Virus record (IMG/VR): IMGVR_UViG_3300021247_000085
Coordinates: 1 to 29,454 of that record
DNA from: a virus
DNA length: 29,454 nt
Direction: 5' to 3' (one strand)
Numbering within the stretch: position 1 is the stretch's first letter; the number at the start of each line of letters is the position of its first letter. The notes below the pieces were generated by a model, which saw only the letters and a list, made by a program, of their open reading frames with translations, had not been told where the DNA came from and made no database searches. Both the position numbers and the translations under genes were made by a program. Shown here in pieces: positions 2,946 through 6,711 of the stretch.

Positions 2946-2953
2946 TATCTTTG
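2946..2953 (+). promoter_or_regulatory. Candidate Bacteroidota -7 promoter element
   Basis: TATCTTTG matches the Bacteroidota primary sigma factor -7 consensus TAnnTTTG exactly. No clear -33 TTTG box is visible at the expected spacing. Transcription would start near 2960, just before the structured RNA. It lies directly after the stop codon of the 58-residue gene. Confidence 0.5.
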
Positions 2954-2959
2954 CATAGT

Positions 2960-3064
2960 TGGAGGTAGAAGCCCAGCAATTAAAAACATTTTAAGCCTGA
3001 AGGGGCGATACTGCCAAGTGTATGTACACTTGCTTCTACCAGTATCAAACCTTCAGGTTTTTTT
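2960..3064 (+). ncRNA. Candidate structured small RNA with predicted pseudoknot
   Basis: About 105 bases between a -7 promoter match and an intrinsic terminator, with no convincing reading frame. Nested pairings: outer stem AAGCCTGAAGG (2993-3003) with CCTTCAGGTTT (3050-3060); middle stem GATACTG (3007-3013) with CAGTATC (3040-3046); inner stem CAAGTGT (3015-3021) with ACACTTG (3026-3032), loop ATGT. The seven bases left on the 3' side between the inner and middle stems, CTTCTAC (3033-3039), are exactly complementary to GTAGAAG (2965-2971) near the 5' end, predicting a pseudoknot. The match can extend to nine bases (2964-2972 with 3032-3040) by opening one pair of each stem. The RNA could be free-standing or a leader that controls the helicase starting at 3068. 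I recognise no known RNA family. Structure is seen in sequence; transcription and role are inferred. Confidence 0.6.
2993..3064 (+). terminator. Intrinsic terminator formed by the outer stem of the small RNA
   Basis: The outer stem has eight perfect pairs (CCTGAAGG 2996-3003 with CCTTCAGG 3050-3057), plus a G-T and two A-T pairs. It is followed by seven T residues (3058-3064). Two further stems fill the loop. It ends three bases before the helicase ATG, so it either ends the small RNA or attenuates transcription into the replication genes. Confidence 0.7.
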
Positions 3065-3067
3065 ATT

Positions 3068-4570
3068 ATGATATTAAGACCATATCAGCAAAAGTTATCA
3101 GATGAATTAGCCAAATGTTTATCATCAGGTAAAAGAAAAGTAGTTGCACAACTTGCAACAGGAGGAGGTAAAACAATTTGTTTCGCCTCAATTTCAAAAC
3201 GATTTACTGATAAATCAGGTAAATCAGTTGTGATTTTAGTTCATAGGAAAGAACTATTACAACAAACAAGAAGGGCATTATCTCAGCATTTCGGCATTGA
3301 AGCACAAATAATTATTGCAGGAATGAAGCATATACCTGAAGCAAAAGTTTATGTTGCAATGGTTGAAACTTTAAAAAGAAGAATTGAGTGGATAAGAAAC
3401 ATTGGTTTAGTAATTATTGATGAGGCACATATTGCAAACTTTAATAAAATACATGAGCATTTTGAAGATGCTTTTTTTATTGGTTTTACTGCAACACCAT
3501 TAGCATCAGGGAAAGACAAACCAATGAAAAATTACTATGAAGACATTGTTTGTGGTGTAGATATACCTGATCTGATTAAGATGGGTAATCTTTGCCAAAA
3601 TGCTACTTATGCTGCAAGAGATGCAGTAAATAGAAATGCGTTAAATGTTGTTGGCGGTGAATTTGACACAGGACAAATGGCACTTGAGTTTTCAAAACCA
3701 AAATATATTAAGAATGCAGTTAAAATCTATGCAGAAAAGGCAAATGGTACAAAAGCAATAGTATTTAATGTAAATATTGAGCATTCTATATTAGTTAATC
3801 AGGCTTTTTTAGATGCTGGATATGATTCAAAGCATCTTGATGGAACTACACCTGAAAATGAAAGAGAAGCAATTTTAGCATGGTTTGAAATGACTGAAGG
3901 TGCAATATTGAACAATGTAGGAATAGCTACAACAGGATTTGATGAACCTACTATTGAAACAGTTATTGTGAATCGTTCTACAATGTCAATGCCTTTATGG
4001 TTGCAAATGACAGGCAGAGGATCAAGACCTATAAATGACAAAAAGGTATTTACAATTTTAGATATGGGTGGAAATGCCATTACTCATGGCGATTGGTGTG
4101 ATAGTAAAGATTGGACAGAAATATTTCATAATCCACCAAAAAAAGGCAAAGAAGGTGTTGCACCAGTAAAAGAATGCCCACAATGTTTTAAGATTTTGCA
4201 TACTCGTACAATGGAATGTGATGAATGCGGATATATCTTCCCACCACCAAATCCAACAGTTGAGGAAGAGTTAAAGGAGTTTGTTTTAGTAACAAAGAAC
4301 CTTGATGTATCTGAAATGATATCTAAAAACAAAGATAAAAAGCCTTATTACACATTTTTTCAGATAGGTTTCAATTTAGCAACACAGGCTAAATACAATA
4401 CTTTAGAAATGAACCAAGAAAAGTTTAATTTTATCCTCCGCACATATTTTGAAAAAGCTGAGGTTTGGTGTAGAGCAAAAGGCATAAAGTTTAACAAGTT
4501 TCATAGAGAATTAGCAGAAAAAACATTAACCGATAACATTAAAAAATCATTCAAGACATGGAATCCATAA
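3068..4570 (+). CDS. Superfamily 2 DEAH-box helicase with C-terminal zinc ribbon
   Basis: 500 residues. Visible motifs: Walker A ATGGGKT at 30-36, Walker B DEAH at 118-121, motif III TATP at 141-144, and motif VI QMTGRGSRP at 313-321 with arginines 317 and 320. Four cysteines at 370, 373, 384 and 387 (CPQC and CDEC) form a zinc ribbon after the second RecA-like domain. This is a RecG/UvrB/Res-like ATP-dependent DNA translocase of the type common in phage replication modules. It probably unwinds or remodels DNA for the primase-helicase encoded next, with which it overlaps by 13 bases. The start ATG is three bases after the terminator T-run, so its expression may depend on read-through. Base composition is AT-rich. 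Confidence 0.92.
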   Translation: MILRPYQQKLSDELAKCLSSGKRKVVAQLATGGGKTICFASISKRFTDKSGKSVVILVHRKELLQQTRRALSQHFGIEAQIIIAGMKHIPEAKVYVAMVETLKRRIEWIRNIGLVIIDEAHIANFNKIHEHFEDAFFIGFTATPLASGKDKPMKNYYEDIVCGVDIPDLIKMGNLCQNATYAARDAVNRNALNVVGGEFDTGQMALEFSKPKYIKNAVKIYAEKANGTKAIVFNVNIEHSILVNQAFLDAGYDSKHLDGTTPENEREAILAWFEMTEGAILNNVGIATTGFDEPTIETVIVNRSTMSMPLWLQMTGRGSRPINDKKVFTILDMGGNAITHGDWCDSKDWTEIFHNPPKKGKEGVAPVKECPQCFKILHTRTMECDECGYIFPPPNPTVEEELKEFVLVTKNLDVSEMISKNKDKKPYYTFFQIGFNLATQAKYNTLEMNQEKFNFILRTYFEKAEVWCRAKGIKFNKFHRELAEKTLTDNIKKSFKTWNP

Positions 4571-6711
4571 TCAGTTTTTATAAAAATATTAGTGAAAAGG
4601 TATCTACTGAAAAAATGCCTTTATCTATCTTTTTGTATAATGTAAAGCATGGTAAATGGGAAAAGTTAGCGCAAGAGATCAGAAAAATTAGCGATCATAA
4701 CCAAAGGCAGGAGAAAAAGCGTGAAATAATGCCTCATGTTACAATCTCAGGATACTTTCAGGAAAATCGTAAAATTGAGAACTTAACACTACATTCTAAT
4801 TTTATTGGAATGGATATTGACGATATTGAAAGCGAAATTGAAAGTACCAGGGCATTACTTTCTACTGATCCATATATTTATGCCATTTTTAAATCAGTAT
4901 CTAATACTGGGCTTTGTGCAATATTTCGAATTGATGGCGAAAAGCACAGAGATGCTTTTGATGCTATTGCAGATTACTTAAAAAACAAGTATCAAATTAT
5001 TGTTGATCCTTCAGGTAAAGATGTAAGCAGAGCAAGATATGTAAGCTATGATCCTGATATGCACTTGAATGAAAAAGCTGCAATATTTAAAAAGTACTTA
5101 CCAAAGCCAAAAAAGCTTAAAATAACAAACACAATATTTGTTCAAACAGAATTTGATGAAGTAATAAATCAAATGGTTAAAAAACAAGTTAATTGTGTTG
5201 AAGATTATCGTGATTGGTTAAGTATAGGTTTTGGATTAGCTGATAAGTTTGGTGAACAAGGAAGGCATTATTTTCATGCTCTTTCTCAAATTTCAGGTAA
5301 ATATGAAAAATCAATGTGTGATAAACAATATACACATTGTGTAAAACATAGGACAAATACTTCAAAAGTTACAATTGCGACAATTTATTACCATGCAAAA
5401 CAGGCTGGCATTAATATTTATACTGAAAAAACACGCAAAATTGCAGCCGTTACATCTTCACAGAAGAAAGCTGGTTTATCAGCAACACAAATAGCTGATA
5501 ATCTTGAAAAGTTTGAAGGTATACCAAAGCAGGATGCAGATGATATAATTAGACAAGCTTTTCAATCTAATGGAGATGTAAAAACAGGTGAAAGTATAGT
5601 TGATCAAGTTAGGGCATATCTCAGACACCAGTACCAATTGAAAAGAAACGTAATTACTCGTAAAATAGAAAACAATGGTAAAATACTTGATGAGATAGAA
5701 TTAAACACTATGTTTTTAGATTGTAAAAACATATTTACTGAATTATCTTCAGAGATATTTATGAAGATTGTTTTTTCTAATAATACACCATCTTATAATC
5801 CTTTATTAGAATGGTTCGAAGAAAATACTGGCAATCCAGTTGGGGTAATAGATGAGTTTTTTTCATGCTTTGATACTCCTGATGATATCAAGTATTTTGG
5901 TAAAAAATGGCTTGTTGGTGTTATTTCTGCTATACATGGCATACATTCTCCATTAATGTTAATTCTGGCAGGAGAAAAACAAGGTACAGGAAAAACTGAG
6001 GCCTTTAGAAGAATGCTACCAAAGGCATTAATTCCATATTATGCAGAAAGTAAACTTGATGCTGGTAAAGATGATGAAATACTTATGACGCAAAAACTCA
6101 TAATCATGGATGATGAAATGGGTGGAAAGTCAAAGAAAGAAAGCAAAAGACTAAAAGAATTAACAAGTAAACAAACATTTACGCTGCGTGAACCATACGG
6201 GAAAATGAATGTAGACTTAGACCGTTTGGCAGTTCTTTGCGGAACTACTAATGATCTTCAGATATTAAACGATCCTACTGGAAACAGGCGTTTATTACCT
6301 ATGCAAATATTTGGCATAGATCATAAAAGATATAATGCAATAAATAAAGATGATTTGTTTATTGAAGCTTATAATTTATGGCAGTCTGGTTTTGAATGGC
6401 AGTTGACTACTGAAGATGTAGAAAGAATGGCAAAGAAAAACGACAAGTTTGAGGAATATTCAGTTGAATATGATTTAATTAACAAATACTATCAATTACC
6501 TGAAAGTTCATGGTTTGTAGAACTTACTGCTACTGACATAAAGGTATCATTGGAAGCAAAATCAAGTCAAAAGCTATCACTTCGTAAAATAGGATTTGAA
6601 TTAAAAAGGTTGGGTTATGAATGCGAAATAAAAAAGATAAATCGAACTACTCAACAATTGTACAAAGTATCTGAAAAGACTGAAAATACCTATAAACCTT
6701 ATCCTTTTTAG
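4558..6711 (+). CDS. VirE/BT4734-type primase-helicase
   Basis: 717 residues. The N-terminal part resembles the BT4734-like/VirE-N primase domain: MDIDD at 85-89 (Asp86 and Asp88, DxD metal site), SVSNTGLCAIFRID at 113-126, and DPSGKDVSRARYVSYDPD at about 150-167. A middle region around residues 200-280 resembles a PriCT-type primase C-terminal domain. The C-terminal half is a VirE-type P-loop ATPase: GEKQGTGKT near 472-480, a Walker B IIMDDE near 514-519, and a later TTND stretch that fits a sensor motif. It would prime and unwind DNA at the phage origin. The iteron-rich candidate origin begins at its stop codon. The domain pairing is well known in Bacteroidota mobile elements. Confidence 0.88.
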   Translation: MESIISFYKNISEKVSTEKMPLSIFLYNVKHGKWEKLAQEIRKISDHNQRQEKKREIMPHVTISGYFQENRKIENLTLHSNFIGMDIDDIESEIESTRALLSTDPYIYAIFKSVSNTGLCAIFRIDGEKHRDAFDAIADYLKNKYQIIVDPSGKDVSRARYVSYDPDMHLNEKAAIFKKYLPKPKKLKITNTIFVQTEFDEVINQMVKKQVNCVEDYRDWLSIGFGLADKFGEQGRHYFHALSQISGKYEKSMCDKQYTHCVKHRTNTSKVTIATIYYHAKQAGINIYTEKTRKIAAVTSSQKKAGLSATQIADNLEKFEGIPKQDADDIIRQAFQSNGDVKTGESIVDQVRAYLRHQYQLKRNVITRKIENNGKILDEIELNTMFLDCKNIFTELSSEIFMKIVFSNNTPSYNPLLEWFEENTGNPVGVIDEFFSCFDTPDDIKYFGKKWLVGVISAIHGIHSPLMLILAGEKQGTGKTEAFRRMLPKALIPYYAESKLDAGKDDEILMTQKLIIMDDEMGGKSKKESKRLKELTSKQTFTLREPYGKMNVDLDRLAVLCGTTNDLQILNDPTGNRRLLPMQIFGIDHKRYNAINKDDLFIEAYNLWQSGFEWQLTTEDVERMAKKNDKFEEYSVEYDLINKYYQLPESSWFVELTATDIKVSLEAKSSQKLSLRKIGFELKRLGYECEIKKINRTTQQLYKVSEKTENTYKPYPF

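Follow-up and report, generated by a model that had tools for sequence, protein, structure and literature searches.

Directly upstream of the replication genes in the viral DNA studied here (the window, a stretch of 29,454 nucleotides) lies a structured RNA leader. Such leaders come in several layouts, all of which keep one contact, in which the loop of a 5′ hairpin kisses the inside of a hairpin resembling a terminator. The leader is a genuine, widespread phage RNA, carried by dozens of viral contigs ranging from ~30-kb phages to contigs of more than 130 kb, and it is apparently undescribed. That the RNA is structured is near certain, and sequence comparison makes a cis-regulatory role likely. 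The account that we lean toward, with somewhat better than even confidence, is a cis-acting, terminator-coupled kissing 5′ leader that sets read-through into operons of Bacteroidota phages.

The leader lies in an intergenic gap of 122 bases, between the stop of a 58-amino-acid open reading frame (ORF; 2769 to 2945) and the helicase ATG at 3068. An earlier note, which proposed an undescribed structured RNA here, had listed a −7 promoter match, three nested stems, and seven T's at the end of the outer stem, three bases before the ATG, and all of these are present where it placed them (Table 1). It had also described a 7-base pseudoknot in the 3′ bulge between the inner and middle stems. The pseudoknot is real and lies in that bulge, but it comprises 8 bp, or 9 bp counting G2964-C3040; C3040 is common to the pseudoknot and P3, and G3032 to the pseudoknot and P4. 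The 5′ strand had been located correctly, but the hairpin around it, P1, had been overlooked. The P1 loop (AGGTAGAAGC) is complementary over 8 to 9 bases to GCTTCTACC, in the bulge between P4 and P3, and since the 5′ strand sits in this loop, the pseudoknot is a loop-bulge kissing contact. If a kissing leader is defined by a 5′ hairpin loop with at least 7 nt of covarying complementarity to the terminator interior, the window copy has 9 nt. The predicted fold has an energy of −37.1 kcal/mol (z-score, −4.46), and none of 200 shuffles was equally stable. Among cultured phages, the window helicase is nearest to those of Flavobacterium and Cellulophaga phages. Elsewhere in the window, a second terminator-like hairpin (2399 to 2428; CTCCTGGCATTTCTATGCTGGGGG TATTTTT) stands directly before an ORF at 2444, with no promoter and no convincing kissing partner.

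Table 1. Parts of the leader in the window and the genes that follow it.
Feature	Position	Strand	Evidence or remark
−7 promoter element (Bacteroidota-type, TAnnTTTG), TATCTTTG	2946..2953	+	Position conserved in leader family; sigma-ABfr consensus in PMC7366714
Whole kissing-loop leader RNA, type I layout	2954..3064	+	Folding, covariance models, covariation
P1, 5′ hairpin	2958..2977	+	Stem GTTGG 2958-2962 / CCAGC 2973-2977; 10-nt loop 2963-2972; double changes in 6 of 7 pair columns
Pseudoknot 5′ strand GTAGAAGC, within P1 loop	2965..2972	+	Pairs with 3032-3039; covariation
A-rich linker, P1 to P2	2978..2992	+	AAAnATT-like in many members
P2 5′ strand (outer, terminator-like stem)	2993..3003	+	Partner 3050-3060; double changes in 9 of 9 modelled pairs
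P3 5′ strand	3007..3013	+	Partner 3040-3046; folding, covariation
P4, inner hairpin	3015..3032	+	3015-3021/3026-3032; folding, covariation
Pseudoknot 3′ strand GCTTCTAC, bulge between P4 and P3	3032..3039	+	Covariation
P3 3′ strand	3040..3046	+	Folding, covariation
P2 3′ strand	3050..3060	+	Folding, covariation
U-run of intrinsic-terminator-like end, seven T's	3058..3064	+	Three bases before ATG 3068; family T-columns after P2
Superfamily 2 DNA helicase (ResIII + Helicase_C), downstream gene, replication module gene 1	3068..4570	+	
Primase/helicase (phrog_15962), second gene	4558..6711	+	

When 2.9 million viral contigs were searched for the pair of core strands at the right spacing, 20 contigs were returned, 12 of which repeat the whole anatomy; L007-L010, L016, L017, L019, and L021, in which the anatomy is missing, were dropped. 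Allowing any base at the middle core position of either strand brought in more than 40 further members. The free middle bases are Watson-Crick, mostly C:G and A:T, in 45 of 45 promoter-bearing matches of standard order, while the six non-Watson-Crick matches of this search carry no promoter and have coding-like sequence. A covariance model trained on eight relatives with the window excluded (R1) recovers the window with a score of 54.5 bits (E = 6.5e-8 over 743 kb searched), which, together with the shuffle result, bears out the earlier claim that the pairings exceed chance. A second model with the window among its training sequences (R2) scores it at 73.9 bits.

The helices are also supported by covariation. 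In alignment A5 (36 sequences, 35 distinct), which was fitted to P1 to P4 so that their counts are biased toward structure, standard pairs fill 97.5% of pair cells and double changes occur in 27 of 34 pairs; covariation scores 0.522, a value reached by 0 of 500 shuffles (0.168) and far from that of slid controls (at most 0.089). The pseudoknot, which lies outside the fitted model, is paired in 100% of cells and has double changes in 5 of its 8 pairs. A plain, unfitted MAFFT alignment of eight members gives the same picture for P1 to P4. Compensatory changes, the check that the earlier note had suggested, are found in every helix, the pseudoknot included.

The identity of the kissing sequences is free, and their complementarity is kept. 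In one relative (L192) with near-identical P2 to P4, a core A:T pair is swapped to T:A, and the second leader of the same contig has an altogether different core (CTTAACCC / GGGTTAAG), with all eight pairs intact. These two leaders (L192:11068-11542, minus strand) lie ~360 bases apart, with a 69-amino-acid ORF between them and unrelated kissing cores. The bias of a core search was removed by a core-blind test, in which 80 viral loci were retrieved by helicase protein only (alignment A7); the helicase as a single-sequence query returned no loci. A leader lies directly upstream in 10 of the 14 helicase loci with at least 52% identity and upstream DNA (three of the 10 are identical), such that most close relatives with the same helicase retain the pairings. 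Six cores occur among the helicase-retrieved leaders (GGTAGAAGC, GTTGCAGC, GTAGCGG, GTCGCAG, GGTGGAATC, and GTGAGAAC), each complementary to its own terminator interior over 7 to 9 nt. Mismatched core comparisons reach a pairing of at least 7 in 52 of 380 cases, a background that includes leaders with a common core. The more distant helicases among the retrieved loci, seemingly inside operons, have no upstream leader.

Only 6 of 111 bases distinguish the leader of L347 from that of L212, and two compensated pseudoknot pairs account for four of the six; the gene behind the L212 leader is unrelated to that behind the L347 leader. The pair, near-identical with nearly only the core differing, looks as if a leader had been duplicated or exchanged and then re-addressed. 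From the sequences compared, we infer that the kissing sequence may change provided that both strands change together.

The contact is kept even where the order of the parts is permuted. In type I, the layout of the window, the P1 hairpin comes first and its partner is the 3′ bulge of the terminator stem. In type II the order is swapped: the 5′ hairpin loop carries the GCTTCNAC strand, and the terminator stem encloses a AGGTNGAAGC hairpin; carriers include Flavobacterium phages snusmum9-1 and hattifnatt9-1 and contigs of 131 and 141 kb. The type II leaders in the latter two (L111 and L120, respectively) precede proteins unrelated to those encoded downstream of the leaders in the small phages. 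Type III terminators carry the partner in their apical loop (L182, L185, L201, and others). The leader of Flavobacterium phage 11b has the cores CGGGCAGG/CCTGCCCG.

Whole-record model searches mostly gave one strong match per phage. A core-free scan revealed three leaders in snusmum9-1 (at about 9090, 13022, and 14066), each with another core, and a second leader with a different core is present in L192, L185, L126, L165, G417, G434, G422, and G444. Given the noise floor of these scans (59 antisense matches against 19 and 28 in controls for snusmum9-1 and the G records; 101 against 15 and 13 for L126 and L165), second leaders were counted solely when the full anatomy was present. The annotated start of the snusmum9-1 gp032 helicase (MN812237.1 position 9166; L108:1667) falls inside the leader RNA; translation more likely begins at an ATG at about 9202, downstream of the U-run.

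Nearly all leaders are preceded by a Bacteroidota-type −7 promoter and followed by the ATG of a gene. The motif TAnnTTTG is the −7 consensus of the Bacteroidota primary sigma factor, sigma-ABfr (PMC7366714). It occurs exactly, and at a near-constant upstream distance, in 34 of 56 non-redundant leaders, compared to 3.2% of random windows from the same contigs, and leaders without the exact motif mostly have a one-base variant. Within the window alone its count is at chance level (37 seen, 36 expected), but its placement is conserved across the family. At the other end, the G/C-rich stem P2 followed by seven T's has the anatomy of an intrinsic terminator. In 24 of 36 members a T immediately follows P2, and T makes up 91 to 94% of the four columns after that.

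The ATG follows the start of the U-run by 4 to 46 nt in 61 distinct cases. The 61 downstream proteins form 29 groups without similarity at an E value of 1e-4; helicases, DUF6291 proteins, DNA methylases, and a GIY-YIG protein are represented. We count this diversity as support for what may be a generic role of the leader. The earlier note had suggested that the RNA controls replication genes. The leader does precede them here, but it is not special to the replication genes of this phage.

No Rfam 15 family matched the window, 11 relatives, or the type II and III loci at gathering or permissive thresholds (the best subthreshold match was manA-II, at 19.2 bits against a gathering score of 100), in line with the earlier proposal of an undescribed RNA. 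No description of the leader was found in the freely accessible journal literature searched. BLAST of the window leader against phages gave noise only. In the genome_contigs set, an exact-core pattern found 71 loci, none of which scored with the model at those sites; one model match there (L041; E = 0.037) lies away from the exact-pattern sites. Under stricter filters and with no positive-control genome, neither R1, run on 395 Bacteroidota genomes, nor R2, run on 320 genomes from the family to which Chryseobacterium belongs, found a leader. A relaxed pattern gave 2 matches in the 395 genomes, which we read as chance coding matches. The RNA looks restricted to phages, and these searches suggest that it is probably mostly absent from resident prophages. 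No convincing leader was found in phi18:1, phi46:1, FPSV-S1, P12024S, PM116P4, or the first 50 kb of phi13:2 and crAss001, in a scan that also missed the 11b leader. Many copies of the core pattern, 62 to 64 bases in length and partly in tandem, occur in Leptolinea tardivitalis (L024, L036, L045, L047, L052, L076, and L082); these are apparently an unrelated repeat family with GGTAGAAGC...GCTTCTACC arms.

Under the cis-acting reading, transcription would start a few bases upstream of P1, from a −7 promoter whose position is observed and whose activity is predicted. P1 would fold first, and its loop would then be kissed by a bulge or loop inside the following terminator hairpin, a pairing demonstrated by covariation. 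P2 and the U-run, which have the anatomy for it, would act as an intrinsic terminator right before the next gene. With no space left for another promoter, that gene would have to be expressed via transcripts that pass the terminator. The contact would tie the 5′ end to the terminator and may set the frequency of read-through, the stability of the terminated ~105-nt RNA, or both. Since cores differ within one phage and core changes are paired, each leader would therefore act on itself and not on its neighbors.

How the contact would influence termination is constrained by what folding predicts. When P2 was forbidden in constrained consensus folding, its strands stayed unpaired at a loss of at least 16.8 kcal/mol, and no conserved antiterminator or alternative fold excluding the terminator was found by this approach. 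This makes a two-state attenuator or riboswitch of the classical kind unlikely; the contact would have to work kinetically, via a bound factor, or once termination has occurred. In these models termination would be the default, with no sign of regulation by mutually exclusive folds. The pseudoknot and P2 can coexist, and how the former would affect termination is therefore not obvious. The earlier note had left a choice between a free phage RNA and a riboswitch-like attenuator. The leader or attenuator side of that choice fits better, but a usual metabolite riboswitch is unsupported and was rejected: core identity is unconserved and complementarity alone is kept, the downstream groups are unrelated, and no conserved alternative antiterminator fold was found. 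Leader-peptide attenuation was likewise set aside, as no conserved small ORF was seen when judged by eye.

The most serious competitor, which we nevertheless consider unlikely, is a trans-acting free small RNA, in which the terminated ~105-nt product would act by its shape on host or phage machinery and the adjacent gene would live on leak-through. A free RNA of this kind, transcribed from its own promoter to its own terminator, would resemble what is seen, which counts against the cis reading, and the compact fold, the unrelated neighboring genes, and termination as the default in the absence of an antiterminator all agree with it. Against it stand the near-constant position directly before an ATG, the presence of several leaders per phage before different genes, and the permuted layouts; the short distance to the ATG is itself weak evidence for cis action, because phage genomes are compact.

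More speculatively, and at low confidence, the leaders could constitute a protein-free RNA addressing device of Bacteroidota phages, built of kissing-coupled terminators whose loop is an exchangeable address. Addresses would diverge by paired changes within genomes and among competing phages, and each terminated leader would control only operons with the same address, as self-contained timers or inter-phage immunity groups.

We regard as improbable a form of trans kissing control, like pT181-type attenuation or P4 CI immunity, in which a terminated leader would kiss nascent leaders with the same core and enforce their termination. Replication genes would thereby be under negative feedback, and the core would define immunity groups. 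Leaders do often precede replication genes, near-identical leaders show a compensated core change, one phage may hold different cores, and pT181 attenuators are natural RNA-RNA regulators with engineered orthogonal variants (PMC3753616). However, in cis the partner strands already pair with each other, no alternative antiterminator was found, many leaders stand before non-replication genes, and no leader was seen in the sampled host genomes.

Start regions in Bacteroidota are A/T rich, and the U-run could be such an initiation region instead of a terminator, the hairpin and its kissing partner serving to protect the mRNA end or to keep the start region open. A stabilizing or translation-tuning 5′ untranslated region of this kind would fit with P1 beginning within a few bases of the likely start site. 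We think it a poor candidate: the T-run directly follows P2 over four T-rich columns while the ATG distance varies, and the T-runs of other start regions in the window reach at most 5, compared to 7 at the leader. Very unlikely is a put-like element, a folded 5′ RNA that would bind RNA polymerase and make it ignore its own and later operon terminators. The folded RNA directly behind a promoter recalls HK022 put (PMC9378689), but put contains no terminator, and the leader family appears to conserve no core nucleotides that could contact polymerase, only complementarity. Finally, a DNA-level feature, either a replication origin or half-sites in inverted orientation for a DNA-binding protein, is strongly disfavored and hardly credible. 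In DNA the core pairs do form inverted repeats, and a replication module is where the window copy is located, but P1, P2, P3, and P4 covary independently, the cores are placed in loops, one genome may hold different cores, and non-replication genes lie downstream.

The regulation of gene expression in Bacteroidota phages is hardly known. The leader can be recognized without protein homology, predicts transcription starts, and is open to direct test in cultured Flavobacterium phages (snusmum9-1 and 11b). It shows an unusual combination of kissing sequences that are free yet perfectly co-changing, permuted layouts that keep the contact, and distinct cores per phage, and it offers a naturally occurring collection of terminator-coupled leaders whose pairing sequences differ from one another.

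Several known systems share parts of this combination. In P4 CI RNA immunity, the leader of a phage replication operon has self-complementary segments and is prematurely terminated. The window leader likewise has self-complementary segments before a replication operon and would end transcripts early, but it belongs to another host group, many of its relatives precede non-replication genes, and only cis partners are seen. The pT181 attenuator works by an antisense RNA. RNA-RNA recognition regions govern its leader terminator and differing sequences yield orthogonal regulators (PMC3753616), a likeness to our family; here, both kissing partners lie within the same leader. HMP_4078 (Fremin and Bhatt 2021; PMC8040213) is a phage-near structured candidate of ~109 bp, mostly from Bacteroidetes and located close to D5 and integrase domains. 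It is described as palindromic with no predicted intrinsic terminator, and by this description it would differ from the leader. The HMP-PP (thiS) riboswitch also has a pseudoknot-capable structure within an intrinsic terminator before a gene, but there the pseudoknot and the terminator base are mutually exclusive and the ligand decides between them (PMC6478431), whereas in the leader the two are compatible, the core is free, and the downstream genes are not metabolic. The put RNAs of HK022 are ~70 nt long, lie downstream of early promoters, form two stem-loops, and need no phage protein (PMC9378689). They have neither an integral terminator stem with a U-run nor a kissing contact, both of which the leader has, and antitermination is known for put alone. 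Leader and put are alike in being phage RNAs with a pair of hairpins, folded directly behind a promoter, which for the leader is predicted to start transcription a few bases upstream of P1.
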